NCBI GenBank assembly: GCA_026225475.1
Contig: JAMFSU010000152.1
Coordinates: 1-64,000 of the forward strand
DNA length: 64,000 bases
Source: Duganella sp.
GTDB taxonomy: Bacteria > Pseudomonadota > Gammaproteobacteria > Burkholderiales > Burkholderiaceae_D
Direction of reading: 5' to 3'
How positions within the stretch are numbered: the first letter of the stretch is position 1; each line of letters begins with the position of its first letter. The translations under genes and the position numbers were made by a program. Positions 27,517 to 58,438 of the stretch are shown here, one piece after another. The notes under the pieces were generated by a model. The model was not told the origin of the DNA, searched no databases, and saw only the letters and a program-made list of their open reading frames with translations.

Positions 27517-28044
27517 ATGAACAAAGAAGAGACACTGCAACAATGGCAACAACAAGAAGCCGCCGTACGCGCCAAACTGGCAGCGCCTGGCGTCGCCTCG
27601 CTGGACGAGCTCAAGGCCGGCAGCGGCATGGACTTTCTGCAACGGATCTGGGATGGTGAGTTACCGTCGCTGCCGATTGGCACCTTGATGGACTTCATCC
27701 CGGTCGAAGGCGAGCCAGGCCGTATCGTGTTTCAAGGCAGTCCTGGCCCACAGCACTACAACCCGCTCGGCAGTGTGCATGGCGGTTATTTCTGCACCTT
27801 GCTCGACTCGGCCGTGGGCTGTGCCGTGCATTCGATGCTGCCGCAGGGCATGGGCTATACCACGCTGGAGCTGAAGGTCAATCTGATCCGTGCACTCACC
27901 ACCAAGATCGGTCCGGTGCGCGCCGAAGGCAAGGTGATTCAGGTTGGCAACCAGGTCGGCATTGCCGAAGGCCGCATTTTCGATAGCGCCGGTAAACTAT
28001 ATGCACATGCCACGACTACCTGCCTGATCTTTGCGTTGCCGTAG
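27517..28044 (+). CDS. PaaI-family hotdog-fold thioesterase
   Basis: A 175-aa protein with the hotdog thioesterase core NPLGSVHGGYFCTLLDSAVG and YTTLELKVNLIRAL, matching the PaaI/YdiI group. It probably hydrolyses an aromatic or acyl-CoA thioester; the substrate is not evident. AAGGA lies 6 bases before the ATG. It is divergent from aceA. Confidence 0.88.
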   Translation: MNKEETLQQWQQQEAAVRAKLAAPGVASLDELKAGSGMDFLQRIWDGELPSLPIGTLMDFIPVEGEPGRIVFQGSPGPQHYNPLGSVHGGYFCTLLDSAVGCAVHSMLPQGMGYTTLELKVNLIRALTTKIGPVRAEGKVIQVGNQVGIAEGRIFDSAGKLYAHATTTCLIFALP

Positions 28045-28093
28045 ATCACTGTAGTGGCAACCGCGATGTGCTGCAGCATAGGCGACGCATGAC

Positions 28094-28122
28094 CAGCTTA
28101 TGCAGTTTTACTGCATAAGCTG
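28094..28122 (+). terminator. Perfect 12-bp hairpin after the thioesterase gene
   Basis: CAGCTTATGCAG and CTGCATAAGCTG are perfectly complementary around a TTTTA loop. The following AGTTGTTT is only weakly U-rich, so it may be a terminator for the thioesterase gene or an operator for the FUSC gene that starts 75 bp later. Confidence 0.5.
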
Positions 28123-28197
28123 AGTTGTTTAAACCGGCAAGAAAGGTCAGAATGGCGTCTATAGAAATTTAACGTAGCGTCTACACCGACCAACTCC

Positions 28198-30420
28198 ATG
28201 CATTACGCTCTGGATATCCGTACTTTCCTCTTCAGTCACTATTTCTATACCGGTGTGCGCATCGCCACCGGCGTCGTCGGAATGACCATGCTGGTGTTCA
28301 ACATGGCCGATATGCAGACCACCATGACGGTGTTTCTCGGCGCCCTGTGCACCAGCCTGATGGATCTGCCCAGCCCCTTGCGGCACAAATTCAATGAAAT
28401 GCTCGCCGGCGTGCTGTTATGCACGATTGTGATGCTGGTCATCAGCCTGTGCGCTCCGGTCGTCTGGCTGGTCAGCGTGATGATGGTGCTGGTCAGCTTC
28501 CTGGCCAGCATGATGATGATCTACGGCAAGAAAACCCAGCCACTGCAATTTGCCGCGCTGATGGTGATGACGCTGTCGATGGAAAACAATGTGCCGGTCG
28601 AAGACGCCTTCCTGCATGCCGGCTTTTTTCTCGGCGGCGGACTCGGTTATCTGACTTATTCAATGACCATTTCCTGGTTCATGCGTCGCCGCGTCAAGCA
28701 GCAAGTGCTGGCCGAGGCCTTGTTCGAGCTGGCGCGCTATCTGCGCATCAAGGCCGACTTCTACGATGTTCGCAGCGATCTGGGTACGCAATTCAATACA
28801 CTGGTACGCCACCAGATCGTGCTGGCAGACAAATTACAAGCCTCGCGTGATCTGGTGTTTCGCGACATGCGCACCAAGCAGGATGGTTTGCTGGTGCATG
28901 TCCAGTTGAGCATGCTGGAATTGTACGAACAGGTCTTGTCGACCCATGCCGACTATGCGCTGTTGCGCAGCCATTTTGGCGACGCCGATGTGATGGTGTT
29001 CCTGCGTGACCTCGCCAACAAGACCGCCGAAGACATTGAATCGATCGCCTATGCCGTCACGCGCAAGCGTGCCTCGATGCCAACCGTGAACTACAAGGCA
29101 GAAATGCGCGCAATCCAGTACGAGTTGCAGCAACTGCAACAGGATGCGCTGGCCGGCAAGATTCCCGATGATGCCATCACCATACTGCGGGTGACGTACA
29201 ACAAGATCAAGGACATTATCGAACTGATTGCACAATTGCATCTGGCCACGCAACAGCCGATTGACGCAATCCCCATTCTGCCCGGCGCTGACATGACGCC
29301 GTTCCTGACCCAGCAAAAATACAAAGCCAGTCTGCTGCTGGCCAATCTGCGCTGGCAATCGCCGATTTTCCGTTTCGCCATCCGCGTCGCGCTGGCAGTG
29401 TCGACCGGCTTGTGGATGGCTGGCCAGTTACCTTACATGTCGCATGGCTACTGGATTGTGCTAACCATCGTCATCATTCTCAAGCCCAATTACAGCAGCA
29501 CCAAACAACGCCTGATGGACCGCTTGATCGGCACCATCATCGGCTGCCTGTTGACGGCGCTGATCCTGCATTTCGTCCATGATCAGATCGGCTTGCTGGC
29601 AGCCTTGTTCGTCGCCAGTGTGGCGGCACCGGCCTTCACCTATGTCAAATATCGCTATACCGCGATTGCCGCCTCGGTGCAAATCCTGATGCTGCTCAAC
29701 CTGCTGGTGCCGGCCGGCCATGAAGGCGTGGTCGGCGAACGCTTGATCGATACCTTTATCGGTGTGGCAATTGCCACGGTGTTCAGCTTTGTGCTGCCGA
29801 GTTGGGAATACCGCGACTTGCCGCGCCTGCTCAAAAACGTCTTGCACGCCAGCCACCGCTATATCAAGGCCAGTCGCGACCTGCTGGAAGGCAAGGTCGG
29901 CGACGACTTCTTCTACCGGGTCTGCCGCAAGGGCTTCATGGATAGTCTGTCGGCATTGATTTCCGCGCAAGTGCGCATGATGGATGAGCCCATCAGCAAA
30001 CAGCGTGCCGTGCAGGAAATCAACCGCTTTGTGGTGCAAAACTATCTGGTGGCAGCGCACATTGCCGCCCTGCGCATCTTGTTGCGGCGGCATGCTGCTG
30101 GCTTGCCGCGCGAGCCGGTGAACCAGTTGATCGAACAAACCTACCAGAATGCCACGGCACATCTGCTAAAGGCGCAAGGCGCACTCAACGCTGCACCGGT
30201 ACCCAGCGCCAACACCCCTGCAGCACCCGTATCAAACAATCCGTTAGACGACACGATCGCCGCCGAAGGCGTTGAAACGGAAATCGCGCCAGATACCATC
30301 GCCTGGGCTGGCTGGCATACCTTGCAACGACGTTCGGCCCTGCTCGACCAGGATTTGCAGGCAATTGTCGCCCAGACCGCCAGCATCGAAGCTATCCTGC
30401 GGCAGTCCGAGCTGGCCTGA
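28198..30420 (+). CDS. FUSC-family inner-membrane transporter (YccS-like)
   Basis: A 740-aa membrane protein with two six-helix FUSC blocks (about residues 15-160 and 390-540) separated by a soluble helical domain. The second block shows YMSHGYWIVLTIVIILKPNY, typical of YccS-like proteins. The C-terminal 150 residues are cytosolic and include a Pro/Ala linker. FUSC proteins export aromatic acids or related compounds. It stands alone, not with a HlyD partner. It converges on metE with a 3-bp gap. Confidence 0.83.
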   Translation: MHYALDIRTFLFSHYFYTGVRIATGVVGMTMLVFNMADMQTTMTVFLGALCTSLMDLPSPLRHKFNEMLAGVLLCTIVMLVISLCAPVVWLVSVMMVLVSFLASMMMIYGKKTQPLQFAALMVMTLSMENNVPVEDAFLHAGFFLGGGLGYLTYSMTISWFMRRRVKQQVLAEALFELARYLRIKADFYDVRSDLGTQFNTLVRHQIVLADKLQASRDLVFRDMRTKQDGLLVHVQLSMLELYEQVLSTHADYALLRSHFGDADVMVFLRDLANKTAEDIESIAYAVTRKRASMPTVNYKAEMRAIQYELQQLQQDALAGKIPDDAITILRVTYNKIKDIIELIAQLHLATQQPIDAIPILPGADMTPFLTQQKYKASLLLANLRWQSPIFRFAIRVALAVSTGLWMAGQLPYMSHGYWIVLTIVIILKPNYSSTKQRLMDRLIGTIIGCLLTALILHFVHDQIGLLAALFVASVAAPAFTYVKYRYTAIAASVQILMLLNLLVPAGHEGVVGERLIDTFIGVAIATVFSFVLPSWEYRDLPRLLKNVLHASHRYIKASRDLLEGKVGDDFFYRVCRKGFMDSLSALISAQVRMMDEPISKQRAVQEINRFVVQNYLVAAHIAALRILLRRHAAGLPREPVNQLIEQTYQNATAHLLKAQGALNAAPVPSANTPAAPVSNNPLDDTIAAEGVETEIAPDTIAWAGWHTLQRRSALLDQDLQAIVAQTASIEAILRQSELA

Positions 30421-30423
30421 TTC

Positions 30424-32592
30424 CTACCCTTGCGCCTGACGCAGCAAACGCGCCGCCTGCACCATCTGCCCCAAGGCTTGTTGCGTTTGTGGCCAGGTGC
30501 GCGTCTTCAAGCCGCAATCCGGATTGATCCACAAGCGCTGCGCCGGAATCTCCTGCTGCGCCTTTTCCAGCAACGCCATTTCCTCACCTGAGGTGTCGAT
30601 GGTGATCACGTCGGCATCCATGGCGGCAATCCACGGCAGGATATCGTTGACTGCCGAGTAACCCATGTGCATGTGGATCTGTGTCTCGTCCTTGGCGCCA
30701 GCGACGCTGATCTTGAACGCATGCACTGCCCAGTTGAGATAATTTTTCCAGTCGTTGGCCTTAAGCGGCAGGCCTGCGCGAAATGCGGGTTCATCAATCT
30801 GGATCATGCCGATGCCCGCCTTTTCCAGATCACCAACTTCATCACGCAACGCCAGCGCGATTTGCAAGGCGGTCGTCGCGTGCGGTTGATCGTCGCGCAC
30901 GAATGACCATTGCAACATCGTAACCGGCCCGGTCAGCATGCCCTTCATAGGCTTACTGGTCAGGCTTTGCGCAAACTGGCTCCAGCCCACCGTCATCGCT
31001 TCCGGGCGATAGACATCGCCATAAATGAATGGCGGCTTGATGCAACAAGCGCCGTCACGCTGTACCCAGCCGTTGACGGTGAGGCCGTAGCCCCACAATT
31101 GCTCGCCAAAATATTCCACCATGTCATTGCGCTCCGGCTCGCCATGCACCAGCACATCCAGACCAAGCTGTTCCTGCTGCTGCACCACCAGGCGGATTTC
31201 GTCGCGCATGCTTTCCAGATAGTCCAGATGAGCGATATCACCCCGCCTGTAGGCCGCATGCATATGACAGATCTGCGCCGTCTGGGGAAACGAACCGGTT
31301 GTCGTAGTTGGAAATGCAGGCAGATTCCAGCGCGCCTGTTGCACGGCGTTACGCGTCGAAAAAGTCGAATGACGGGTGGCGTCGCCAGCACTGACCTGCT
31401 GCAAGCGCTTTTGTACCAAGGCATTGCGAATACGCGGTGATTGCCGCTTTACCGCCAGGGCCGCACGGGCGGCAGCAAACTTGCTGGCGACCTGATCGGT
31501 GTAGGCTGCCAATGCCTGCTTGAGGGTGACGATTTCATCCAGCTTTTGCACCGCGAAGGCCAGCCAGCTCTTGAGTTCGGCATCGAGTTTTGATTCGTGG
31601 CCGAGATCGACCGGGACATGCAGCAACGAACAGCTGCTGGCCAGCCACAAGCGCTCGCCGAGTTTTTCCTGCAACGGCTTGAGCACTGCCAACGCAGCAT
31701 CCAGATCGCAGCGCCAGATATTGCGGCCATCGACAATACCAACTGACAGCACCTTATCCAGCGGCCAATGATTGGCGAAGGCCTGCAATTGCGCGACACC
31801 GCGCACGCCATCCAGATGCACCCCAGCCACCGGCAAGGTGCGCAGCAGATCAAGGTGTACGCTGACCTCATCAAAATAAGTGCTCAACAGCAGCGGCGGT
31901 GCAATCTCGCTCAGTTCGCCATAGACCGGAGCGAAAGCCTCCAGCCAAGGCTGCGCCAATTCCAGCGCCAGAATCGGCTCATCCATCTGCACCAGTGTCA
32001 CGCCCTGCTCCCGCAGTCGCGCCAGCACCTTGCGATAAGCCGCCACGGCCTGCGGCAGCAACGCCAATGGATGCGTCAGCCCGCCCTTGGCTTTACCCAG
32101 ATAGAGCAGGCTCAGCGGCCCGAGCAACACGACCTTGCTGCGATGTCCAAGCGCCTGCGCTTCGGCCACCTCCTCAAACAGCCAATCGACACCACCGTCG
32201 AAGCGGACGTCGGGCGTCCATTCCGGCACCAGGAAGTGATAATTGGTATCGAACCAGTTGCTCATTTCCATGGCTGGTTGCTGGCAGTCGCCGCGCGCCA
32301 TGGCGTAATACGCCGGCAAATCAAGTTGGGCGGCATCTAACTGATACCGGGTCGGCAACGCGCCGAGCAATGCCAGCGTGCCAAGCACATGGTCATACCA
32401 GGCAAAGTCGCCCACCGTGACCAGATCCAGTCCGGCATCGGCCTGCAACTGCCAGTGCTGCGCACGCAAGCGCTGACCAACATCCTGCAAGCCAGCTTGC
32501 GCCAGTTCACCCTGCCAGAAAGCCTCCATGGCGAATGTCAATTCCCGCTGCGCGCCGATGCGCGGAAAACCCACTACGTGTGCCAAACCCAT
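30424..32592 (-). CDS. metE: MetE-type methionine synthase lacking key zinc-site residues
   Basis: A 722-aa homologue of cobalamin-independent methionine synthase (E. coli 753 aa). The N-terminal folate domain is normal ([30 protein letters not shown]), as are [29 protein letters not shown] and [10 protein letters not shown]. The zinc site is altered: H642 and C693 (PDCGLKT) remain, but the position of Cys643 is Gly644 (HMHMGYS for HTHMCYC) and Glu665 is Asp666. About 30 residues that carry the DIHSP motif and proton-donor His694 are missing between LLE and [12 protein letters not shown]. The reading frame is continuous. It is divergent from metR. Normal methionine synthase activity is doubtful. 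Confidence 0.88.
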
Positions 32593-32641
32593 GTTCCACC
32601 CCGAAGACCAACAATCGACAACTTGCCATGTTGCGCGCAGA

Positions 32642-32692
32642 TGAACTATGATTCAAACGAGATTTTCTAAGGATTAACTTGAATTTTATTCA
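32642..32692. promoter_or_regulatory. MetR-type sites in the metE/metR intergenic region
   Basis: TGAATTTTATTCA at 32680-32692 fits the MetR consensus TGAA-N5-TTCA exactly and ends 2 bases before the metR ATG. A second near-match, TGAA-N6-TTCA, lies at 32642-32655. Both agree with MetR control of metE and self-regulation. Confidence 0.7.
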
Positions 32693-32694
32693 TA

Positions 32695-33627
32695 ATGCCA
32701 GCACCACTATCGCCCATCCTTGAACTACGCCATCTGAGAACCCTGCAAGCGCTCAAGCAAGCAGGCAACCTATTGCGTGCAGCGACCCTGCTCAATCTCA
32801 CACAATCGGCGCTATCACATCAGATCAAGCAATTGGAAGAGCACCACGGTGCGGCGCTGTTTGAGCGAAAATCGGTGCCGGTTCGCTTCACACCGGCCGG
32901 CGAGCGGCTGCTTAAACTGGCAGATGACGTATTGCCACGCGTGGCCGAAGCCGAACGCGATCTGGCGCGGCTGTTGCAGGGTGAGGCAGGTCAATTGCGC
33001 ATTGCAGTCGAATGCCATACCTGCTTTGACTGGCTGATGCCGTCGATGGATGTGTTTCGCAAGCGCTGGCCGGAGGTCGACATGGATATCGTCTCCGGTT
33101 TTCAGGCTGACCCGATTGGTCTGCTGCATGAACACCGCGCCGATGTCGCCATCGTTGCTGAAATCGATGCCGATGAACCGGTCGATTACCATGCGCTGTT
33201 TCGTTTTGAGATCGTCGCGCTGCTGGCGCACGACCACCCGTTGGCGCACAAGACGTACCTGAGTGCGGAGGATTTCGCCAGCGATACCCTGATCACCTAT
33301 CCGGTACCCGATGACATGCTCGACGTGGTGCGTCAGGTACTCAAACCGGCCGGCATCAATCCACCCCGCCGCACCACAGAACTGACAGTCGCCATGCTGC
33401 AATTGGTCGCCAGCCGCCGTGGCATCGCCACCTTGCCACTGTGGGCCGCACAGAACTATCTCAAGCGCGACTATGTGCTGGCCAAACCCATCAGCGCAGC
33501 AGGATTGACCGGCAAGCTGTATGCTGCTTGCCGACCGGAACTGTCGAGTAAATCCTATCTGATTGATTTTGTCGCGTCGACGCGTGAAACCAGCTTTCTC
33601 AACCTGCCTAATGTTGAATTACTGTAG
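32695..33627 (+). CDS. metR: LysR-family methionine regulator MetR
   Basis: A 310-aa LysR regulator. The helix-turn-helix is in LLRAATLLNLTQSALSHQIK. The effector domain starts with LRIAVECHTCFDWLMP, a sequence typical of MetR, which responds to homocysteine. Divergent metE and MetR-type boxes between the genes support the name. The ATG at 32695 is forced by an in-frame TGA at 32680-32682; no good ribosome site is visible. Confidence 0.92.
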   Translation: MPAPLSPILELRHLRTLQALKQAGNLLRAATLLNLTQSALSHQIKQLEEHHGAALFERKSVPVRFTPAGERLLKLADDVLPRVAEAERDLARLLQGEAGQLRIAVECHTCFDWLMPSMDVFRKRWPEVDMDIVSGFQADPIGLLHEHRADVAIVAEIDADEPVDYHALFRFEIVALLAHDHPLAHKTYLSAEDFASDTLITYPVPDDMLDVVRQVLKPAGINPPRRTTELTVAMLQLVASRRGIATLPLWAAQNYLKRDYVLAKPISAAGLTGKLYAACRPELSSKSYLIDFVASTRETSFLNLPNVELL

Positions 33628-33718
33628 TAAGTTCAACGCCCCCGGAAATCCGCTCAAGGACGCCTCGTGCTACAGCCTAGGCAACGGCGATGAAAACTGC
33701 AGTTGACCTGTGCTCGTC

Positions 33719-35455
33719 TTAGTCGCGCTTTTCCAAAACCGTCGCCGGTTGCTCGTATGACAAAATCCGGTGCAACCGCTTTTGTTCAAACATACGCTCA
33801 TCAGCCACACGCAACAGCGTTTCAACATCAAGTCCATCTTGCGGATACAGGGCCGCACCGATGGAAGCATCGACGTGATAAAGATTGCCGTCGCGCCCTT
33901 CAATGGCCTGATTGAGGAAGTTGCGAATTTTGTCAGAGATCGACTTGGCGACACTTTCCTCGGATACGCCATGCAGATACACCACAAACTCATCGCCACC
34001 GAAGCGCGCCACGGCATCATCCTTGCGCAACGCATGTTGCAGTTGCGAAGCTGCCGAGATCAATACCTTGTCGCCTTCGTCGTGGCCGTATTGGTCGTTG
34101 ATGGACTTGAATTTATCGAGATCGATGAACAATAGCGCAAAGCGCAGTGGTGCCGCCTCGCCACCTTTGCGACGGCGGAAATCGATTTGCGCCACGAAGG
34201 AGTCGCGATTGAGCACATTGGTGAGACGATCCGTACGCAGGTTATGCTCCATTTCCTGGAAACTCTGCGCCAACTGGCCGATTTCATCACTGCGATCAAT
34301 ATTGAGTGAAGGGAACGGCTCGCCATTACCGATGCTCTTGGCCGCCAGTGTGAGCTTGCGAATATCGCGCAAGACCCAGCGCAGAATCACGAAACCAAGC
34401 ACAAAAGTCATGCACACGGCGATAAAACCCAGCAACAAGGTTTGATACACCCCGCCGGTGACCGAGCCGAGGAAATCGGAGCGGCTCACGGCACTAACGG
34501 CAAGCCAATCAACCCCGGCATCGTCATGATGCAAACGGAATGCTAACTCGGTCTTCGGCCCCGCAGTCTGCAAGGCTTGCACCACCAGCTCGCCCGGCAC
34601 CAGCTTGTGCGACTTCAGATATTGCTGCACATCGGCATAGGCTTCGCGCACCACCGGCGACCTGCTTTGCCCGGCCTGCAGGCGCCTCACATTGTTGCCG
34701 TCGACCTGATGGATTGGTTCGTTGACCGAAGTCGCAATCAGCTCACCACTCATTTCCATGACAAATGCCACCCCGTGCGGACTCAAGGGCAAGGCTTCCA
34801 GAAACTCGCTGAGCTGGCGCAAGCCGATACTGCTGCCAGCCACACCAAGTAACACGTGATCGGCGCTATAGACCGGTTTGGATAAGGTAATGCCGAGATG
34901 TTTGAGGCGAAAATCGGTAAACACCTCCGACCAGGTTTCCTTGCGCCGTGCGATGGCACTGGTGTACCAAGGACGTGTGCGCGCATCGTAATCCTGCGCC
35001 ACGATCAATACCGGTGGCGTTCCAGGTCCGCGCAAGTGATAGACAAAACTCTTGCCGGGTGGATCACGCCGGCTATACATGAACAGGTTCAGCTCTTCCT
35101 GCTTGATGCCAAGGAAGCTGCCGTCAACGCCACCAAAATACACATAACTCGGATCGTCGAACAGGCTATTGGCCAGCCACAGGCGCTCTTCCAGCATGGC
35201 CTTGTCTTTGGGAAAGGGCAGATAGACGGGCTGACCACCTTTTTGGGCCGGCGGAATGGGATCCGGCGACACCACGCGCAAACTTTCGCGCGCGCCCATC
35301 AACTGCCGGTCAACCGCCTGGCTGACACGACTCATGGTATCCATCAAGGCATTGCGCGCCAACACTTCTGTGGCGTCATCGCCAGCGCGATACAAAAACC
35401 AGCCAATGGTGATGGCCAGACATGACATCAAAAAGACAAACGGAAGGATGAACAA
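33719..35455 (-). CDS. Membrane diguanylate cyclase with Cache-type sensor
   Basis: A protein of at least 578 aa with an N-terminal membrane helix (MFILPFVFLMSCLAITIGWF), a large periplasmic region of about 290 residues of dCache type, a second helix (LLGFIAVCMTFVLGFVIL), a HAMP segment and a GGDEF domain. The active motif ARFGGDEF is intact and an RKDD inhibitory site sits five residues before it, so c-di-GMP synthesis with feedback control is expected. The first codon here is TTG. A CTG at 35479 preceded by AGGGGTGG would add LKQSSLQR and may be the real start. Confidence 0.88.
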   Translation of the reverse strand: MFILPFVFLMSCLAITIGWFLYRAGDDATEVLARNALMDTMSRVSQAVDRQLMGARESLRVVSPDPIPPAQKGGQPVYLPFPKDKAMLEERLWLANSLFDDPSYVYFGGVDGSFLGIKQEELNLFMYSRRDPPGKSFVYHLRGPGTPPVLIVAQDYDARTRPWYTSAIARRKETWSEVFTDFRLKHLGITLSKPVYSADHVLLGVAGSSIGLRQLSEFLEALPLSPHGVAFVMEMSGELIATSVNEPIHQVDGNNVRRLQAGQSRSPVVREAYADVQQYLKSHKLVPGELVVQALQTAGPKTELAFRLHHDDAGVDWLAVSAVSRSDFLGSVTGGVYQTLLLGFIAVCMTFVLGFVILRWVLRDIRKLTLAAKSIGNGEPFPSLNIDRSDEIGQLAQSFQEMEHNLRTDRLTNVLNRDSFVAQIDFRRRKGGEAAPLRFALLFIDLDKFKSINDQYGHDEGDKVLISAASQLQHALRKDDAVARFGGDEFVVYLHGVSEESVAKSISDKIRNFLNQAIEGRDGNLYHVDASIGAALYPQDGLDVETLLRVADERMFEQKRLHRILSYEQPATVLEKRD

Positions 35456-35536
35456 CCGTTGTAAAGAAGATTGCTTCAGAATTCCACCCCTTGCTTGTTC
35501 CCAAAGTCGCCATGATCGGCCAGGTCCAGAAACAAA

Positions 35537-35568
35537 CGGCCATGCTCAGACAAAGTCTGCTCTGGCCG
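35537..35568 (-). promoter_or_regulatory. Two-tier hairpin upstream of the diguanylate cyclase gene
   Basis: CGGCCA (35537-35542) pairs with TGGCCG (35563-35568) and inside it CAGAC pairs with GTCTG. On the minus strand it is followed by TTTGTTTCT. It lies in the leader region of the diguanylate cyclase gene and could be an attenuator or a second terminator. Confidence 0.4.
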
Positions 35569-35673
35569 CACCCCCAAATGACACCACATATTTATTATTT
35601 TTTCATTCACGATTTAACACTGCGCAATTGGTCCGCCGACTGCACTCTATTTGCAAGATTTTAATCGTTTATG

Positions 35674-35738
35674 CAAAAAAATTCCCTGACACTCGGAAAT
35701 CCGCTATTTTTTGCGGAAAACGTTCCAAGTATCAGGGA
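35674..35738 (-). terminator. Branched Rho-independent terminator of clpB
   Basis: An 11-bp stem (35683-35693 with 35728-35738, one mismatch) encloses an inner TCCGC/GCGGA hairpin. Read on the minus strand it is followed by ATTTTTTTG. It begins about 40 bp after the clpB stop. The rest of 35456-35778 has no gene. Confidence 0.8.
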
Positions 35739-35778
35739 GCTAGAAATAGCATAATTACAAAGAGTTAATCAAGACATT

Positions 35779-38373
35779 TCATTCCGTCGCAAATGAAAGT
35801 GCGCCATTTTGGACACTCACGTGAACCACATCCTTGGGACCGAATTTGCCTTGCAGAATCAGTTTCGACAACGGGTTCTCGATTTGCTGCTGGATTGCCC
35901 GCTTCAATGGCCGCGCCCCATAAACCGGATCAAAGCCTGCTTCGGCGATTTTTTGCAAACCAGCTTCGGTCATCACCAGCCCGATATCCATCTTGGCTAG
36001 CCGCTGTTCAAGGATATGCAACTGAATCTTGGCAATTGCACCGATGTTCTTTTCATCGAGCGCATGGAACACCACGATCTCATCGACCCGATTAATGAAC
36101 TCTGGCCGGAAATGCAACTTGACCTCCGCCATCACTGCCATCTTGATTACCGCCGGGTCGCTGCCTTCCATCGCCTGTATCTTGTGTGAACCAAGATTGG
36201 AGGTCATCACGATCACGGTATTCTTGAAATCCACGGTGCGTCCCTGACCATCCGTCATGCGACCATCGTCGAGCACTTGCAGCAAAACGTTGAACACATC
36301 GGGATGCGCCTTTTCGATTTCGTCGAGCAGGATCACGCTATACGGCTTGCGGCGTACAGCTTCAGTCAGATAACCGCCCTCTTCGTAACCGACATAACCG
36401 GGCGGCGCGCCAATGAGCCGTGCCACCGAATGCTTCTCCATGAATTCACTCATGTCGATACGGATCATCGCTTCTTCGGTATCAAAAAGATAAGACGCCA
36501 GGGCCTTGCACAACTCCGTCTTGCCAACGCCGGTTGGCCCCAGGAACATGAATGAACCATAAGGCTTACCGGGATCGCCCAGTCCAGCGCGCGAACGCCG
36601 GATTGCATCGGAGACTGCAACAATGGCCTCGTCCTGTCCGACCACGCGATGGTGCAGCTCATCTTCCATATGCAACAATTTCTCGCGTTCGCCCTGCATC
36701 ATGCGCGAGACGGGGATACCGGTCGCGCGTGCGACGATTTCAGCGATTTCTTCGGCGCCGACCTGAGTGCGCACCAGCCTTGGCTTGTGGCCGGGCAGAT
36801 TTTCAGTCGCAGCATCCTGCTTGTTCTGCGCCTCCAGCGCGGTTTCCAGTTCGGCCAGCTTGCCGTACTTGAGTTCCGACACCACTTGCCAATCGCTCTT
36901 GCGTGTGGCTTCTTCCATTTGCAGACGCACGCGCTCGATCTCTTCCTTCAGATGCTGGCTACCTTGCACGGTGGCTTTTTCAGACTTCCAAATTTCTTCC
37001 AGATCGGCATATTCACGTTCGAGCTTGATGATTTCTTCTGCGATCAAGCTCAGGCGTTTTTGCGATGCCTCATCCTTTTCGCGCTTGACCGCTTCGCGTT
37101 CGATTTTCAACTGAATCAGGCGGCGATCCAGTTTGTCCATGACTTCCGGCTTGGAGTCGATTTCAATCTTGATCTTGGCCGCTGCTTCATCAATGAGATC
37201 GATCGCCTTGTCCGGCAGGAAGCGGTCGGTAATATAGCGATGTGACAACTCGGCAGCAGCCACAATGGCCGGATCGGTAATATCGACACCATGGTGCACT
37301 TCATATTTTTCCTGCAACCCGCGCAAGATGGCGATAGTCGCTTCGACACTCGGTTCGTCCACCAGAATTTTCTGGAAACGGCGTTCCAGCGCGGCGTCCT
37401 TTTCAATGTACTTGCGATACTCATCGAGCGTGGTCGCACCGACGCAATGCAGTTCACCGCGCGCCAAGGCCGGCTTGAGCATATTGCCGGCATCCATCGC
37501 ACCTTCGGCCTTGCCTGCGCCCACCATGGTATGCAACTCGTCGATGAAGACGATGGTCTGGCCTTCATCCTGAGCGATTTCCTTCAGCACTGCCTTGAGA
37601 CGTTCCTCGAACTCGCCGCGATACTTGGCGCCGGCCAGCAAGGCCGCCATGTCAAGCGACAGCACGCGCTTGGATTTGAGGCTATCAGGCACTTCGCCAT
37701 TGACAATACGCTGCGCCAGACCTTCCACGATGGCGGTCTTGCCCACGCCCGGCTCACCGATGAGTACCGGATTGTTCTTGCTGCGCCGTTGTAGCACCTG
37801 AATTGCGCGGCGGATTTCATCGTCGCGGCCGATCACCGGATCGAGCTTGCCATTGCGAGCGCGCTCGGTCAGGTCCACCGTGTATTTCTTGAGCGCTTCG
37901 CGTTGCCCTTCCCCCTCCTGCGACGACACACTGGCGCCACCACGCACAGCGCTGACGGCCGCTTCCAGCGATTTACGCGTCAAACCGCTATCGCGCGCGG
38001 CGCGGCCGGCATCGGACTTGTCTTCGAGCAGGCCAAGCCAGATCATTTCGCTGGCGATGAACTGGTCGCCACGCTTTTGCGCTTCCTTGTCGGCCAGATT
38101 GAGCAACGCCACCAATTCGCGCCCAATCTGCACTTCGCCGCCATTGCCGGAGACTTTCGGCAAACGCGTCAATGCATGTTGCAAGGCCGAATTGAAGCTG
38201 ACCACATTGACTCCGGCACGCTGCAACAGCGAACGGGCGCCGCCATCGTCCTGCGCCAGCAGCGCCAGCGCCAGATGGCTGGGTTCGATATATTGATTGT
38301 CGTTGCCGACGGCCTGGCTTTGTGCGTCAGCCAGCGCTTCCTGCAATTTGGTCGTTAGTTTGTCAAGACGCAT
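35779..38373 (-). CDS. clpB: Disaggregase chaperone ClpB
   Basis: An 864-aa AAA+ hexameric ATPase that resolves protein aggregates with DnaK. Order: N-domain ([16 protein letters not shown]), first AAA domain with GEPGVGKT, middle coiled coil, second AAA domain with GPTGVGKT and the closing [19 protein letters not shown]. Length and motifs are normal. A sigma-32-type promoter lies just upstream and a strong terminator follows, so it forms its own transcription unit. Confidence 0.97.
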
Positions 38374-50926: not shown

Positions 50927-51655
50927 TCAATGATGCGCGCCGCCACCGAGATAGGCCGCCTGCACCGCAGGATCATTTTGCAGTTTGTCAGCCGGGCCGT
51001 GCACCGAAATCCGGCCATTTTCCAGCACATAACCATAGTCCGCGACATTCAACGCTGCCGCTGCAAACTGCTCCACCAGCAACATCGTAATACCTTGCTG
51101 CTTCAAGCGCAGGATGATGCGAAACACTTCGTCGACCAGGATCGGTGCCAATCCCATTGACGGTTCATCAAGCAGAATCACGTCCGGATTGAGCATGACT
51201 GCCCGCGCCATCGCCAGCATTTGCTGCTCGCCACCGGACAAGGTTCCGGCCAACTGGGTCTGGCGTTCCTTAAGACGCGGGAACAATTCCAATGCTCGCT
51301 CCAGATCGTGCGCAATGTCGCCCTTGGGACGCGCCCGTGTGAAGCGCGGGAAAGCACCCAGCAACAGATTGTCGGTCACGCTCATGGTGGCAAACACGCG
51401 CCGTCCTTCCGGCGAATGGGCCAAACCAGCGCGCGCGATCTGGTGCGAATCCTGACCCGTGACATCCTTGCCCCCCAACATCACGCTACCGCCCTTGGGT
51501 TTGATCATGCCGGAAATGGCGCGCATGGTGGTGGTCTTGCCGGCACCGTTGGAACCGATCAGCGTCACCACTTTACCTTTGGGCACGTCCAGCGAAATGC
51601 CATGCAGCACTTGCACCTTACCGTAGGCGGCTTGCAAATTCGAAATCGTCAGCAT
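50927..51655 (-). CDS. livF: Branched-chain amino-acid ABC transporter ATPase LivF
   Basis: A 242-aa ABC ATPase with Walker A GSNGAGKT, signature LSGGEQQMLAMARAV, Walker B VILLDEPSMGLAP and the family ending GRISVHGPADKL. It pairs with the LivG half of the preceding fusion. The ATG at 51655 is 1 base after the stop of that gene, showing coupling; 51685 is unlikely. Confidence 0.95.
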   Translation of the reverse strand: MLTISNLQAAYGKVQVLHGISLDVPKGKVVTLIGSNGAGKTTTMRAISGMIKPKGGSVMLGGKDVTGQDSHQIARAGLAHSPEGRRVFATMSVTDNLLLGAFPRFTRARPKGDIAHDLERALELFPRLKERQTQLAGTLSGGEQQMLAMARAVMLNPDVILLDEPSMGLAPILVDEVFRIILRLKQQGITMLLVEQFAAAALNVADYGYVLENGRISVHGPADKLQNDPAVQAAYLGGGAHH

Positions 51656-51656
51656 C

Positions 51657-53624
51657 TCAAGCTCCCGCAGTGGTTGGATTGGCAAGATCGGCCTCGGCGG
51701 TGCTGCCGCCGAGATAGGCTTCGATCACCTTGGGATCGGCTTGCACCGCAGCTGGTTTGCCTTCGGCAATCTTTTGGCCGAAATCAAGCACGGTGACGGT
51801 GTCGCAAATCGACATGACCACATCCATATGGTGTTCGATCAGGATGATGGTGATGCCAACATCACGAATCTTGCGGATGATCGCTACCAGTTCCTTGATA
51901 TCGGGTGCAGTCAGGCCGGCCGCGGGTTCGTCAAGCAGCAACAGGCTCGGATTGAGACCGAGCGCACGGCCAATCTCCAGCAGTCGCTGTTTGCCGTAAG
52001 GCAGATTACGCGCTTCCTCGTTGGCCAGATCGGCCAGGCCAATGAACTCCAGAATCGCTGCCGCACGTTCGCGCGCTGCGCGCTCTTCGCGCCGGTAACG
52101 GGGACTTTGTATCATGACATCGGCGACATTGCTGTTGAACGTGTGATGCAGACCAACCAGAATATTCTCGGTGGCACTCATCTCGCCGAACAACTGCACG
52201 TTCTGGAAAGTGCGCGCCACGCCGCCGAGTGCAATCAGCGATGGCGTCTGGCCGGTGATGGTGCGGCCATCGTATTCGACTGCACCGGCAGTGGGACGAT
52301 AGATGCCGGTCAGCACATTCATCATGGTGCTCTTGCCGGAGCCGTTAGGGCCAATCAGGCCGTGTACGGTGCCCTTGCGCACATCGAGATCAACCTGGTT
52401 GAGCGCCTTGAGGCCGCCAAACTGCATCAACACTTGGTTAACCTTGAGCAAGGTCGCGCCGTCTTCCTTGAGCGCGGCCGTGGTGATCACTGCTGCGGTG
52501 TGGCTGCCATCAATCTGCAGTTGTGGCGGCATGGCCCGGCTCAACGCGCGGCCGAACAAATTGCGGCAAAAGCCGACAATGCCATCCTGCAGGTAGTACA
52601 CCACAAACAGGGTCATTAGGCCGAAGATGGTCAGGCGCCAGTCGGTAATATTTTCCAGCTTGTAGGCAAATCCGGCCATCAAAATGGTCGCCGCCATAGG
52701 CACCGCGACTTCACGCGGCGTCTTGGTCTTCTTGACGACGGAGGCAATGCCGCCGGCCGTGACAATTACTGCCGCGACGGTCGCGATCTGGCGAAACAAG
52801 GCGATATCTGACAGCAGGCTGGGCAGCATGACCACAATCAAGGCGCCGATCAGCGACCCCATACGCGACTTGCGCCCGCCCATGATGACCGCCAGCAAGA
52901 ACAAAATGGTCAACTCGAAATTATAGGTATTGGGTGAAATGTATTCTTCCGAATACGCATACAGGCATCCCGACAATCCCGCCAGACCGGCGCTGATGAC
53001 GAAGGCATAGACCTTGTAGCGATACACCGACACGCCCATGCAATCAGAAGCGATCGGACTGTCGCGCAGTGCCTGGAATGCGCGTCCCAGATGCGAGCGC
53101 AGAATGCGATGCACGACGATCAGCGACAACACCATCAACACTGCCACCACATAGAAGAACTGTACCTCGGTCAATTTGACGTCATTGAACATGGGCTTGG
53201 CGACCTTTAGCCCCATCGGCCCTTCGGTCAGGAACGTCATTTCATTGATCAGAATCTGGATGATGGTGCCAAACGCCAGCGTCACCATGGCCAGATACGG
53301 TCCGGTCACACGCAAGGCCGGCAACGCCAGCACGGCACCGAACACCGCAGTCACGGCGATGCTGGCTGGCGCCACAATCAGAAACGGCAAGCCTAGTTTG
53401 AAATACAGCACGCCTGCAGTGTACGAGCCGATGCCAAACAAGCCGGCATGGCCGAGCGACACCTGGCCGGTGTAGCCGACCACGATATCGAGACCGAACA
53501 ACAGAATGGCGTAGATCAGGATGGTCTCTGCCAGATGCAGATAATAAGGATTGGTCATCACCAGCGGCAGCGCCGCTAGCGCTGCGATGCCGAGCAAGGA
53601 CAGCAAGAGGATTTTTTTGTTCAT
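51657..53624 (-). CDS. livM: LivM-LivG fusion: permease and ATPase in one protein
   Basis: A 655-aa fusion. Residues about 1-340 are the LivM permease (DIVVGYTGQVSLGHAGLFG, LRDSPIASDCMGV, eight or more helices). After a linker with two more hydrophobic segments comes LivG with Walker A GPNGSGKS near 425-432, LPYGKQRLLEIGRAL and LLLDEPAAGLTAPD. One polypeptide thus serves as both subunits. The start at 53624 (MNKKILLLSLLG) is 5 bp after livH. Fusions of this kind occur in other betaproteobacteria. Confidence 0.93.
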   Translation of the reverse strand: MNKKILLLSLLGIAALAALPLVMTNPYYLHLAETILIYAILLFGLDIVVGYTGQVSLGHAGLFGIGSYTAGVLYFKLGLPFLIVAPASIAVTAVFGAVLALPALRVTGPYLAMVTLAFGTIIQILINEMTFLTEGPMGLKVAKPMFNDVKLTEVQFFYVVAVLMVLSLIVVHRILRSHLGRAFQALRDSPIASDCMGVSVYRYKVYAFVISAGLAGLSGCLYAYSEEYISPNTYNFELTILFLLAVIMGGRKSRMGSLIGALIVVMLPSLLSDIALFRQIATVAAVIVTAGGIASVVKKTKTPREVAVPMAATILMAGFAYKLENITDWRLTIFGLMTLFVVYYLQDGIVGFCRNLFGRALSRAMPPQLQIDGSHTAAVITTAALKEDGATLLKVNQVLMQFGGLKALNQVDLDVRKGTVHGLIGPNGSGKSTMMNVLTGIYRPTAGAVEYDGRTITGQTPSLIALGGVARTFQNVQLFGEMSATENILVGLHHTFNSNVADVMIQSPRYRREERAARERAAAILEFIGLADLANEEARNLPYGKQRLLEIGRALGLNPSLLLLDEPAAGLTAPDIKELVAIIRKIRDVGITIILIEHHMDVVMSICDTVTVLDFGQKIAEGKPAAVQADPKVIEAYLGGSTAEADLANPTTAGA

Positions 53625-53628
53625 GGCA

Positions 53629-54519
53629 TCAGACCTTTTTGATCGCAGTTTTGCCAAACAGGCCCGCCGGCTTGACAGCCAGCACCAGCAACAGCAACAG
53701 CAGACCCGGCACTTCCTTGTAGCCGGTGGAGATATAGAAACCGGTCAGTGTTTCCGCCACACCCAGAATCAGACCACCGACGATCGCCCCCATCCCCGAG
53801 GTCAGGCCGCCGACGATCGCCACGGCAAATGCCTTCAGACCGAGTGCCGTACCCATGGTGGCACCGGTCAGTGTCAGTGGCGCCACCAGCACGCCTGCGA
53901 ACGCCGCCGTGGCAGACGACAAGGCGTAAGAAAAGGTGATTACCATGCTGGTATTGATACCCATCAAACCGGCTGCGTCGCGGTCATTGGAAGTGGCTAC
54001 CACTGCCTTGCCATAAATCGATTTGCGATTGAACGCTTCCACCGCCAGCATGATCGCCAGCGCGCCGACCACCACCAGCACCTGCATCGGCTGCACATTG
54101 GCGCCGAGGATCTGGAACGGTTTTGCCGACAAGGGGCTGGGGAATGGCAGATCATCCTTGCCCCAGATGTTTTCTGCGACGTTCTTGAAAATGATGGCCA
54201 GTGCAATAGTCGACATGATCCAGCCGAATTCCGATTTGATCTTGATCGCCGGACGCACGCCTATCCATTCGACGAACATGCCCTGCAGCGCGCCAAACAC
54301 CAGCACCACCGGAATCATTAGCCAATAATTGAGATACGGGCCGCCATGAATATTGCCGACCACCGACAACCCGACCAGTGCGCCCAACATGAGCGCTTCG
54401 CCCTGACCGAAATTGAGGGTGCCGGAAGTGGCGAAAGTCAGTTGATAACCGAAGGCAATGACAGCGTAGATCATGCCTAACGCAACACCGCTGATAACCA
54501 GCTGTAACAGAATGTCCAT
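53629..54519 (-). CDS. livH: Branched-chain amino-acid ABC permease LivH
   Basis: A 296-aa inner-membrane permease with about eight helices. Family marks: LVISGVALGMIYAVIAFGYQ, LNFGQGEALMLGAL and the EAA-like STSNDRDAAGLMGINTSMV (in part). It partners LivM. The start at 54519 follows TTAGGTAG. It is separated from livK by 210 bp with a terminator-like hairpin. Confidence 0.95.
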   Translation of the reverse strand: MDILLQLVISGVALGMIYAVIAFGYQLTFATSGTLNFGQGEALMLGALVGLSVVGNIHGGPYLNYWLMIPVVLVFGALQGMFVEWIGVRPAIKIKSEFGWIMSTIALAIIFKNVAENIWGKDDLPFPSPLSAKPFQILGANVQPMQVLVVVGALAIMLAVEAFNRKSIYGKAVVATSNDRDAAGLMGINTSMVITFSYALSSATAAFAGVLVAPLTLTGATMGTALGLKAFAVAIVGGLTSGMGAIVGGLILGVAETLTGFYISTGYKEVPGLLLLLLVLAVKPAGLFGKTAIKKV

Positions 54520-54659
54520 AATTTCTACCTAAGAAGCGGTTGCCACGCAATGGCAATTGAATCGATGCGCCGGTTCACCATGGCGTGGTAGCCGGGATGG
54601 CTTGTGACCCATCCCTGGCCTGATACCAATGGCAGCGGTAAACCGACCAGCGATTCTGC

Positions 54660-54696
54660 GAAAAAGGCCAGCCCCCGGTTTGCAAGGACTGGCCTT
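54660..54696 (-). terminator. Terminator-like hairpin between livK and livH
   Basis: AAGGCCAG near 54664 pairs with CTGGCCTT ending at 54696, and on the minus strand the stem is followed by TTTTT. It lies 34 bp after the livK stop. Partial termination here would give more binding protein than membrane subunits. Confidence 0.75.
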
Positions 54697-54729
54697 CATG
54701 CTTGAACGACGACGACGCTGCCGTTGAAT

Positions 54730-55881
54730 TTACTTGCCGAGAATGACGCGGCCGTTCTTGACCTCGCCCATGACCACCATGTTTGGCTTGATCGCTTCAT
54801 GATCGGTATGGGAAAACGGTTTTTCGTAAGTCGTCACCACGCCTTCGACCTTGCCATTGAGGTTTTCCAGTGCGGCGCGCACTTTTTCACCGTCGGTGCT
54901 ACCCGCTTGCTTGATGGCGGCGGCCAGCAGGTAGATGGAGTCGTAACCTTGGGCTGCCGAGACGGCCGAAGGAATGCGATCAATCTTGTAGGCTTTTTGG
55001 TAGGCTTCGATGAAGGCTTTGCGCTTGGGCGTATTGCCATCCTGGATGAAGGTTTGCGGCATGCGCGCACCATTGCCGTTCTTGCCCGAGTTGTCGATGA
55101 AGTTACCCATCGACAACGGCCAGCTGCCAATGATAGGCACGTGCCAGTCGAGCTTTTCCATGCCGTTGGCGATCTGCGCCAACTCCGGACCAATACCGTA
55201 GGTCAGCACAACCTGCGCACCGCCCTGCTTGGACTTGAGCAACTGGGCCGTCATGTCGACGTCCTTGATGTTGTATTTTTCGACCGCAACCGGGGTGATC
55301 TTTTTGCTGGCCAAGACCTTTTCCAGATCTTCACGACCCAGTTGGCCGTAGTTGGTGGAGTCGGCCAGAATCGCCACCTTGGCGTATTTTTGCTTGTCGA
55401 CGGCTTCATCGGCGATCATCTTGGCCTGGATCTGGTCGCTGGCCGAGGTGCGGAAGATGTAGTTGTCTTTTTCTTTTTCAAACTGCTTGGTGATCACGCT
55501 GCCGGTAGCAACGTTGTTGATCACCGGAATCTTGGCTTCCTGATAGAAGCGCTGCGATGCCAATGCAACGCCGGTATTGATGAAGCCGACTGTGGCGACG
55601 ACTTTTTCCTTGTTGATCAATTCTTGCGCGACCTGCACGCCACGCTCATTCTTGGCTTCGTCATCGCGTTCGATCAATTGCAACTGGCGGCCCAACACAC
55701 CACCGGCAGCATTGATATCAGCCACCGCCAGTTTGACGCCATCGCGCATCGACGCACCCATTGGCGCCGAACCGCCAGTAAACGGACCAGACACGCCGAT
55801 CTTGATCGGTTCTGCGGCTTGGCTGGACAGGGACAGGCTGAGCAAGGCTGCTGCAACCAAAGCTTGGGTTTTGTAATTCAT
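54730..55881 (-). CDS. livK: Branched-chain amino-acid substrate-binding protein LivK
   Basis: A 383-aa periplasmic protein with a signal peptide (MNYKTQALVAAALLSLSLSS, cleaved near QAAEP). The mature start IKIGVSGPFTGGSAPMGASM is typical of Leu/Ile/Val-binding proteins. Other marks are DDEAKNERGVQVAQELINKE and ATVGFINTG. AGGAGGA lies before the ATG, the strongest ribosome site in the window. It leads the liv gene set. Confidence 0.94.
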   Translation of the reverse strand: MNYKTQALVAAALLSLSLSSQAAEPIKIGVSGPFTGGSAPMGASMRDGVKLAVADINAAGGVLGRQLQLIERDDEAKNERGVQVAQELINKEKVVATVGFINTGVALASQRFYQEAKIPVINNVATGSVITKQFEKEKDNYIFRTSASDQIQAKMIADEAVDKQKYAKVAILADSTNYGQLGREDLEKVLASKKITPVAVEKYNIKDVDMTAQLLKSKQGGAQVVLTYGIGPELAQIANGMEKLDWHVPIIGSWPLSMGNFIDNSGKNGNGARMPQTFIQDGNTPKRKAFIEAYQKAYKIDRIPSAVSAAQGYDSIYLLAAAIKQAGSTDGEKVRAALENLNGKVEGVVTTYEKPFSHTDHEAIKPNMVVMGEVKNGRVILGK

Positions 55882-56043
55882 TGTCTTCCTCCTGGTTTAA
55901 TTATTTTGGCCCGGCACTCCTGCATGAGGCAGTAAGGCCGAACCAACTATTTACCTGATCGCGTGTGTCCGCAATTCTAAGTATTAGGTTTTCGTCGTGT
56001 CGGGGCTGATTCTGTCGCATCTACCTTTCTCGAAACTTACATT

Positions 56044-56460
56044 TCAGTCAGGATGTGTACCGAGAATACGACGTACGCGATCAGGCAAGCGTACCGATTT
56101 TGCCTGTTCAAAGTTGACCCAGACGATTTTTGCTGTGCCTTCAGCATAGAGGATTTGCGAATCGTCACTCGCTAAAATTTGATAGGTAGTTTCCACACTG
56201 GAGCGTCCCGGTATCCGTGCAAACATGCGCACTTCGATATCGGCCGGATACTTGAGCTGACGCAGGAAAGTGCACGCAGTATGGACCACCACCGGTCCTT
56301 CGCCATCGGCGACCATGGCGGCATCGCCAGCTTCCAGCCATTCGATGCGGGTCTGCTCCATGTAGCGAAAATAGACGGTGTTGTTGACGTGACCAAAGGC
56401 GTCCATGTCGCCCCAGCGTACCTTCATGTGTGAAGTGTGAATCAAGATTGTGTCAGTCAT
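56044..56460 (-). CDS. Acyl-CoA thioesterase, YbgC/FadM family
   Basis: A 138-aa 4-hydroxybenzoyl-CoA thioesterase-type hotdog protein. The catalytic motif WGDMDAFGHVNNTVYFRYME carries the active Asp. The likely role is hydrolysis of acyl-CoA esters in fatty-acid metabolism. It is divergent from the ETF-QO gene; the 283-bp gap between them holds no other gene that I can recognise. Confidence 0.88.
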   Translation of the reverse strand: MTDTILIHTSHMKVRWGDMDAFGHVNNTVYFRYMEQTRIEWLEAGDAAMVADGEGPVVVHTACTFLRQLKYPADIEVRMFARIPGRSSVETTYQILASDDSQILYAEGTAKIVWVNFEQAKSVRLPDRVRRILGTHPD

Positions 56461-56743
56461 ACGCGAGTGTCTCTCCTGTGTTCGCTGATTGCGTTGCCAA
56501 CATTATGTCCAATATCACGCCCATTTAATGTCAGACCAGATTGAATTAATTTTATCCATCCTGCTTGGTGCGCCCGCACGTCCCACTGCATCAACGCATT
56601 TCCCCTGCTGGGTACAGGGAAATCAAATAAAATGCGCACGTCGGGACATATTTTGCTGTGCAGACTAGCATTCTCTCGTAAAATGCCAACCAATAGCACG
56701 ACCGTTCGCAAATGTTTTTACCAAAAAATAGACGAGACAATCC

Positions 56744-58432
56744 ATGACCCAAACTCAAGACTTACTGGCGCAATACGGCCCACGTGAAACGATGGACTAC
56801 GACGTCGTGGTCGTCGGTGGCGGCCCGGCAGGACTTTCTGCGGCGATTCGCATCAAACAACTGGCGGCCGACACCGGCCGTGAAATTGCCGTTTGCGTGC
56901 TGGAAAAAGGCAGCGAAGTCGGCGCCCACATCTTGTCCGGTGCGGTCATGGACCCACAGGCCCTCACTGAATTATTCCCCGACTGGAAGGAACGCGGCGC
57001 GCCGTTAAACACCCCTGTGAGCGAAGATCGCTTTCTTTTCCTGTCCGCCAGCAAAGCCTTCCAGACACCGTCTTGGATGCTGCCAGCTTGTTTCCAGAAT
57101 CACGGCAACTATGTGATCTCGCTGGCCAACGTGGTGCGCTGGCTTGGTCAGCAGGCCGAAGCCTTGGGCGTAGAGGTGTTTCCCGGCTTCGCCGCGGCCG
57201 AAATCCTGTACAACGACGACGGTTCGGTCAAAGGCGTAGCCACCGGCAACATGGGTGTTGACCGCCATGGTGAACCGACGGCAGCGTTTCAGCTCGGTAT
57301 GGAATTGCATGCCAAGTACACGTTCTTCGCCGAAGGCGCACGCGGCCATCTGGGTAAGCAACTGATCAGCAAATACCAGCTCGATGCCGGCAAGGACCCA
57401 CAGACCTATGCGCTCGGCCTCAAAGAAATCTGGGAAATCGATCCCAAGCTGCACCAACCGGGTCTGGTGGTGCATACCGCAGGTTGGCCGCTGGATCGCA
57501 GCACCTATGGCGGTTCTTTCCTGTATCACTTGGAAAACAATCAGGTTGCCGTGGGCTATGTGGTTGGTCTGGCTTATGAAAACCCGTATCTGTCACCTTA
57601 CGAAGAATTCCAGCGCTACAAGACCCATCCTGAAATCCGCAAGTTCTTTGAAGGTGGCAAGCGTCTGGCTTATGGCGCGCGCGCAATTACCGCGGGTGGT
57701 CTGCAATCACTGCCGAAGCTAACTTTTCCGGGTGGCGCGCTGATTGGCTGCGATGCCGGCTTCCTCAATGCTTCGCGCATCAAGGGCAGCCACGCGGCCA
57801 TCAAAACCGGCATGCTGGCCGCTGAAGCGGTCGTAGAAGCCTTGGGCAAGGATCGCCAATACGATGAGCTGAGTGCTTACAGTGCCGCGTTTGAAAAGTC
57901 CTGGCTGCACGAAGAATTGCACAAGGCGCGCAACTTCAAGCCATCGATGAGCAAGGGTTTATTGACCGGCACACTGCTGGTCGGTATCGACCAGGTGATC
58001 TTCGGTGGCAAGGCGCCCTGGACGCTGCATCATCAACATGCTGACCATGAATGCCTGAAACCGGCGGCCGACTTCGCGCCGATTGTGTATCCGAAGCCCG
58101 ATGGCAAGTTGACGTTTGACCGACTGTCATCGGTGTTCATTTCCAACACCAATCACGCCGAGGATCAGCCCATCCATTTGACGCTGAAAAATGCCGCCGT
58201 GCCGGTCGACGTCAACCTGGCCAAATATGCAGGCCCGGAGGCGCGTTACTGCCCTGCCGGTGTGTATGAGTTCGTCAAGACGGAGGATGGCAACGGCAAC
58301 AGCGCCGATCGCCTGCAAATCAATGCGCAGAACTGTGTGCATTGCAAGACGTGCGATATTAAAGACCCAACGCAGAATATCGTCTGGGTCACGCCTGAGG
58401 GCGGCGGCGGGCCGAATTATTCGAATATGTAA
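56744..58432 (+). CDS. Electron transfer flavoprotein-ubiquinone oxidoreductase
   Basis: A 562-aa enzyme passing electrons from reduced ETF, fed by acyl-CoA dehydrogenases, to ubiquinone in the inner membrane. It has the FAD motif VVVGGGPAGLSAAIR, a GSEVGAHILSGAV segment, and the C-terminal 4Fe-4S cluster with CPAGVYEF and CVHCKTCDIKDP. The ending GGGGPNYSNM is usual for this family. It fits with aceA in fatty-acid use. Confidence 0.95.
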   Translation: MTQTQDLLAQYGPRETMDYDVVVVGGGPAGLSAAIRIKQLAADTGREIAVCVLEKGSEVGAHILSGAVMDPQALTELFPDWKERGAPLNTPVSEDRFLFLSASKAFQTPSWMLPACFQNHGNYVISLANVVRWLGQQAEALGVEVFPGFAAAEILYNDDGSVKGVATGNMGVDRHGEPTAAFQLGMELHAKYTFFAEGARGHLGKQLISKYQLDAGKDPQTYALGLKEIWEIDPKLHQPGLVVHTAGWPLDRSTYGGSFLYHLENNQVAVGYVVGLAYENPYLSPYEEFQRYKTHPEIRKFFEGGKRLAYGARAITAGGLQSLPKLTFPGGALIGCDAGFLNASRIKGSHAAIKTGMLAAEAVVEALGKDRQYDELSAYSAAFEKSWLHEELHKARNFKPSMSKGLLTGTLLVGIDQVIFGGKAPWTLHHQHADHECLKPAADFAPIVYPKPDGKLTFDRLSSVFISNTNHAEDQPIHLTLKNAAVPVDVNLAKYAGPEARYCPAGVYEFVKTEDGNGNSADRLQINAQNCVHCKTCDIKDPTQNIVWVTPEGGGGPNYSNM

Positions 58433-58438
58433 GCAAAA

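Follow-up and report, generated by a model that had tools for sequence, protein, structure and literature searches.

Can a two-domain methionine synthase gene that has lost part of its zinc site and its acid residue still serve a cell, and if so, as what? The 64,000-nucleotide stretch of Duganella DNA analyzed here (the window) raises this question at an altered MetE homologue of 722 amino acids, MetE1, delimited by open reading frame and domain profiles at positions 30424..32592 of the minus strand. A preliminary description had placed the gene exactly, and its product is a full two-domain MetE homologue. The frame is open across all 722 codons, without stops or frameshifts. Both Pfam domains are recognized, Meth_synt_1 with an E value of 5e-118 and Meth_synt_2 with 4e-121, and identity to 36 two-domain MetEs is 50-69%. 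A FUSC-family membrane protein gene converges on metE (28198..30420, plus strand) and marks the orthologous locus in other genomes. A MetR-like LysR regulator gene diverges from it (32695..33627, plus strand).

Loss of zinc, acid and folate-contacting residues

Conserved positions are given in E. coli numbering, in which the UniProt features are the zinc ligands His641, Cys643, Glu665 and Cys726 and the DIHSP histidine, His694. MetE1 was compared with E. coli MetE and 124 loci in an alignment of 126 rows, where at least two contigs occur twice because two collections were used. Its aligned residues are His642, Gly644, Asp666 and Cys693 in window numbering, the same as first described. Gly644, encoded by GGT (30661..30663, minus strand), replaces Cys643, and Asp666 (30595..30597, minus strand) replaces Glu665. 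Cys726 is kept as Cys693 (30514..30516, minus strand), and His641 also remains. The earlier report of an in-frame loss of the segment with His694 was right in substance but slightly imprecise in place. The junction of the deletion, which removes beta7 and the DIHSP motif, lies at 30570..30571 (minus strand) and not near 30565, between MetE1 residues 674 and 675; 34 residues (102 nt) are missing against the closest relatives, or 31 net against E. coli. Imperfect 9-nt repeats, GCTGCTGGA and GCTGATGGA, flank the deleted 102 nt in relatives such as G148 and G154. Three of the five zinc and acid positions are therefore changed in MetE1. Position 643 is Cys in 124 of the 126 aligned MetEs and Gly in two, MetE1 and L041, the protein from the same locus of relative G161; His694 is present in 124 of 126.

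Displacement of the zinc or acid residues to another part of the protein was considered and rejected, as no displaced residue was found in the alignment or by segment search of the assembly. A 57-residue query from a relative, spanning the missing segment, matched only contig C6 of the window assembly and, without the segment, MetE1 itself. The Glu-to-Asp change alone would be tolerable for activity, since a study of core methionine synthases (PMC7857596) reports Asp at the Glu665 position of a characterized MesB.

Contact roles for folate and homocysteine are those named for T. maritima MetE in PMC539065, moved to E. coli numbering by motif offset. On this assignment, four of seven folate contacts (R17, K20, K117, R515, K518, W561 and E605) are changed: K20T (Thr19, 32536..32538), K117N (Asn112, 32257..32259), R515C at the contact to the folate tail (Cys516, 31045..31047) and E605A at the contact to the pterin (Ala606, 30775..30777), all on the minus strand. 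The homocysteine side chains assigned from the same source, Ser433, Glu484, Met490 and Asp599, are all kept. An earlier impression that the N-terminal folate domain and the rest of the protein look normal has to be withdrawn: K20T and K117N are assigned folate contacts in that domain, and R515C, E605A, I431T, S511R, Y512D and others are changed elsewhere.

To put these losses in proportion, 162 columns were defined as invariant across 123 sequences, with MetE1, L041 and the contig-truncated L135 set aside. MetE1 departs at 27 of them (18 substituted, 9 deleted); in a leave-one-out comparison no sequence among the 123 departed at more than six. Changes are enriched at the folate contacts assigned from PMC539065 (4/7 versus 12/138 of the non-ligand invariant columns present; Fisher p = 0.003) and at all ligand columns together (7/16 versus 20/146 others; p = 0.007). 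The C domain (15 of 105 columns present) has no significantly higher share of substituted columns than the N domain (3 of 48; p = 0.18). Judged by residues known to be needed, MetE1 would almost certainly not act as a methionine synthase.

Predicted structure

An AlphaFold model of MetE1 has an overall pLDDT of 90.6 and no beta7. Block means fall to 61-74 over residues 661-700, with values under 50 at 668-673, as compared to 84-90 over the same residues in a canonical control (L064) that was modelled in the same way and has beta7 at 686-690. The model aligns with 1u1h over 700 residues by VIA-align (Z 56.6, rmsd 1.9). Because it is guided by canonical relatives, the model is no proof that the damaged barrel folds, and loss of beta7 should, on this prediction, be damaging to the C-terminal barrel.

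A second MetE and MetH in the same genome

The question whether the genome also has metH was answered positively, and a second metE was found with it. This gene, on contig C6, encodes MetE2, which is canonical at the five zinc and acid positions and 53% identical to MetE1 over the main matched segment. MetH was found in all nine genomes with a metR-metE1 locus, and a C6-type MetE in five of these (the window genome, G161, G148, G154 and G157). Redundancy alone is insufficient for the change, because G148, G154 and G157 hold MetE1, MetE2 and MetH and keep MetE1 canonical at the zinc and acid positions. MetE1 is also canonical there in G014 and G140, which have two MetEs each. Altered MetE1 occurs in two of the five genomes holding MetE2 versus none of the four in which MetE2 was not found, numbers too small for significance; one of the four, G162, is only 63% complete.

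Two RNA elements were noted on contig C6. A phage-type C4 antisense RNA (Rfam RF01695, 67.7 bits) occupies the end of the contig next to the gene for MetE2 (L212:38-126), and a manganese riboswitch lies at L212:4177-4346.

The same locus in relatives

A close metR orthologue (at least 80%) with adjacent metE was present in nine of 34 genus genomes, and no close metR-metE1 locus was found in the other 25. Seven of the nine copies are canonical at all five zinc and acid positions. The change is thus not general among relatives, but it recurs in more extreme form in G161. There, L041 is an open frame of 675 amino acids between the same metR and FUSC neighbors that ends after beta6. It has lost four of the five zinc and acid positions and, on the PMC539065-based assignment, all four homocysteine side chains and five of seven folate contacts, including all four lost in MetE1. 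L041 and MetE1 are 55% identical. Against the four genomes of the G148 group, identity of the window genes and those of G161 is, respectively, 87-89% and 87% for metR, 85-86% and 80-81% for FUSC, and 74-75% and 54-55% for metE. In G152 the locus is present without metE. The metR-like gene at that locus (L215:5198-6232) is only 58% identical to window MetR; the regulator may have drifted once its partner gene was gone.

Searches beyond the genus used the pattern QIHxHM-[codon RSN]-Y for replacements of Cys643. It matched one of 392 family genomes, that of the window, and two of 399 order genomes. The second order match, in G665, was rejected as an apparent chance hit outside any long open frame. 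No other convincing replacement was seen in these 392 family and 399 order genomes with a pattern that does not catch all variants and misses, for example, the QMHLHLG of L041; 263 of the 392 family genomes match L041. Short, apparently dead metE remnants with internal stops occur in the same family at G072:C10:27501-27800 and G102:C71:88-420.

Other observations concern gene content of the genus. Genes at window positions 50927-64000, among them a branched-chain ABC transporter, ETF-QO and a proton-translocating NADH dehydrogenase-type subunit, are also found in the G161 stretch and not in the 60-kb stretches of G148, G157 and G156. Of the 34 genus genomes, 21 hold an open frame of approximately 350-430 amino acids with a 28-31% match to the C domain of MetE1; in several genomes it lies close to a MetR-like gene (e.g. 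G151:C34). These frames are probably MesD-type core synthases.

One loss or two

The Gly codon is GGT in both the window gene and that of G161, and the corresponding codon is TGC in the other six of eight genomes compared, a pattern that favors a single, ancestral event; both genes are likely to have inherited the loss of the zinc Cys. Of 15 window changes, 10 are at columns where L041 is changed too (42 of 133 present in both; p = 0.006), an overlap that loses strength when the domains are taken separately (one-sided p = 0.04 and 0.06). C643G is the only common change with an identical residue; the other overlapping losses led to different residues and are possibly independent. In metE trees the two altered genes group together (support 96-98 with the full-length protein, 89 with the N domain alone and 44 with the C domain alone), a grouping that could reflect long-branch attraction.

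Neighbor genes, filtered at >60% identity, place the window genome with G161 at support of 62 (10 genes), 81 (7 genes) and 71 (12 genes). A 5-gene neighbor tree gave 67 for the other grouping, and a 15-gene tree, whose filter let through at least one paralogue of 35% identity, put G161 with G169/G170 at 100. G162, with its short contig, was left out of all trees and codon models, and G154 out of the 15-gene and filtered neighbor-gene trees. Topologies compared by codon models differed by 6 to 19 log units, to be read with caution, as some fits of that set had not converged and gave negative likelihood differences. On neighbor genes, support for the window genome and G161 as sisters is weak at best.

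Selection on the altered copies

Codon branch models treated the window gene and that of G161 as sisters, with branch times taken from the metR fit and not re-estimated. In the N domain, omega was 0.155 (background), 0.199 (window), 0.33 (G161) and 0.33 (stem); in the C domain it was 0.073, 0.129, 0.549 and 0.32, respectively. These values depend on the metR clock and are compatible with a short recent neutral phase. On the window branch, omega = 1 was rejected (2dlnL 201 for N, 226 for C) and equality with background was not (1.9 and 3.3). The stem was raised above background (6.4 and 10.4). The G161 branch was also above background (41 N, 234 C) yet below 1 (186 N, 43 C), its C domain becoming neutral at a shorter time (omega 1.07 at t = 1.5). 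Under the other topology with free times, the window N domain showed 0.184 versus a background of 0.157 (2dlnL 0.5), and the C domain was raised to 0.16 versus 0.074 (10.5), still below 1 (45). The raised C-domain value under that topology is relaxation. Rates relative to metR, computed by hand from tree branch lengths with the topology fixed, show a window C domain approximately 2.2 times faster than the summed canonical branches (3.14 versus 1.41) and an N domain close to the usual pace (2.6 versus 2.4).

Simulations of stop codons gave different degrees of assurance for the two genes. If the excess divergence of the G161 gene were neutral, 8.6-10.6 stops would be expected; there are none, and none of 200 runs was stop-free with either baseline. 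For the window gene approximately 2.3 stops are expected from the excess divergence, and 10.5% of 200 runs were stop-free. The case for retention is therefore good for the G161 frame, whereas for the window gene it is no more than suggestive.

Regulation

Between metE and metR, TGAATAAAATTCA (32680..32692, minus strand) matches the core TGAA-N5-TTCA of the MetR consensus ATGAA-N5-TTCAT, as given in PMC4239095. This core is perfect only in the window and G170 among the nine loci, with weaker forms in the others. The preliminary description held that MetR control is kept. In its favor, the divergent metR is conserved, and the intergenic block can be aligned at all nine loci, G161 included, with most of it conserved; however, the block also serves metR, so its conservation is not proof of metE expression. 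MetR control of MetE1 is plausible on these sequence features. A search for riboswitches gave no Rfam match at the gathering threshold within 28000-36000. A simple scan showed no terminator after the window metE; in G154, G156 and G157, inspection by eye showed an inverted repeat and a T run downstream of metE.

Retained protein or decaying gene

We consider it about an even bet that MetE1 is, in full, a non-catalytic MetE paralogue, or pseudoenzyme, freed by redundancy and then retained. With MetE2 and MetH present, the metR-linked copy would have lost its zinc and folate chemistry before the window and G161 lineages split, as the shared GGT codon suggests, and would then have been unable to methylate homocysteine with methyl-folate as donor. 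MetE1 of the window lineage would have been kept as an open, constrained protein, probably still transcribed from a putative MetR-type divergent promoter. The G161 copy appears to have drifted further, with the N-terminal barrel its better kept part. Loss of catalytic residues with frame and selection kept, the pattern of a pseudoenzyme, is what the sequences suggest, less strongly for the window gene alone. The marks of an ordinary pseudogene are absent: stops and frameshifts are lacking from MetE1 (722 codons) and L041 (675 codons), and omega is not approximately 1. Any retained role is a guess, namely homocysteine or partner binding under MetR. The kept side chains Ser433, Glu484, Met490 and Asp599 mean that MetE1 may still bind homocysteine or methionine. 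A further proposal, doubtful when taken as a whole, is that it is a MetR-controlled protein that binds homocysteine or methionine without methyl transfer, for example serving the MetR circuit as buffer, sensor or partner. The double-barrel fold would then be preserved for binding instead of catalysis, and G161 would represent a later stage, with constraint left mainly on the N-terminal barrel.

A close rival to retention of a non-catalytic paralogue is early decay of a redundant gene, in which the window copy was recently inactivated, that of G161 is further along, that of G152 is lost, and most of the genus is without the gene. We regard such decay as a serious possibility, though short of an even chance. 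It accords with the presence of MetE2 and MetH, the G152 locus without metE, the 25 of 34 genus genomes in which no close metR-metE1 locus was found, deletion of beta7 between short repeats, raised C-domain omega under the other topology, and the restriction of altered copies to genomes holding MetE2 (2/5 versus 0/4, not significant). A window gene without stops is also compatible with approximately 60 neutral changes (P about 0.1). Decay is harder to square with a G161 frame open over 675 codons where about nine stops are expected, with window-branch omega well below 1, and with losses that favor the assigned folate contacts over other invariant columns; for these three reasons the evidence leans to a retained paralogue. 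In addition, the apparently dead remnants of G072 and G102 show internal stops and fragmentation, and the redundant G148, G154, G157, G014 and G140 keep MetE1 canonical at the zinc and acid positions.

The view that MetE1 is a regulated gene for a protein altered or losing function was broadly right, but its further suggestion of a different sulfur acceptor or metal geometry is poorly supported, because MetE1 is missing folate contacts, a zinc Cys, the DIHSP His and beta7 all at once. We would give little weight to the unlikely reading that MetE1 is still an active methyltransferase, altered in its methyl donor, acceptor or metal geometry. The kept His641, Cys726 and assigned homocysteine contacts would suit such an enzyme, and PMC7857596 describes core MetE families that use other methyl donors and a MesB that tolerates Asp at the Glu665 position. 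The same study, however, gives His and not Gly at the Cys643 position of most MesC. Moreover, DIHSP and beta7 are missing from MetE1, which nevertheless retains a folate-type barrel whose assigned contacts are lost. It is more improbable still that the deletion is an assembly or sequencing error. The assembly is a draft of 169 contigs, but the deletion is in frame and, like a real one, is flanked in relatives by short imperfect repeats; setting it aside would still leave 18 independent substitutions at invariant columns. An assembly artefact as the whole account fails to explain these substitutions.

Comparison with known systems

If retention of a non-catalytic paralogue is the true reading, one locus in one genus presents a natural series of canonical, zinc- and folate-dead, truncated and absent metE, with which one could test what a double-barrel enzyme retains once catalysis is lost. 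The altered genes also set an annotation trap. The NF003556 equivalog (cut-off 541) scores MetE1 at 972.8 and L041 at 649.9, and with both Pfam models it accepts, and still names as a working enzyme, the two altered proteins; only the stricter cut-off of TIGR01371 (929.95) is above both (897.1 and 569.9). Predictions of B12 independence from metE presence would thus be wrong where such a gene is the only metE. In the open-access literature we found no paper on a catalytically dead two-domain MetE; related papers concern metE loss and B12 dependence.

MetE1 resembles the two-domain MetEs of E. coli, T. maritima (1xdj/1xpg) and A. thaliana (1u1h) in predicted double-barrel fold, both Pfam domains, the metR divergon and the homocysteine side chains, as assigned from PMC539065. 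It differs from them by Cys643 to Gly, Glu665 to Asp, deletion of His694 with beta7, and loss of four of the seven folate contacts so assigned. The core methionine synthases MesA-MesD (Price et al. 2021, PMC7857596) have a homologous catalytic barrel and no folate-binding domain; MetE1, in contrast, keeps its N-terminal barrel. Some core relatives described there have no zinc ligands, such as MesB-like proteins of Chloroflexales, and the MSBL-1 MesC has Gly at the Glu665 position, for which another function is suggested. The nearest likeness is to L041 of G161, which shares the metR/FUSC locus, the GGT Gly codon, the four assigned folate losses and an open frame with MetE1. L041 differs in its length of 675 amino acids, its end after beta6 and the loss of all four assigned homocysteine contacts.
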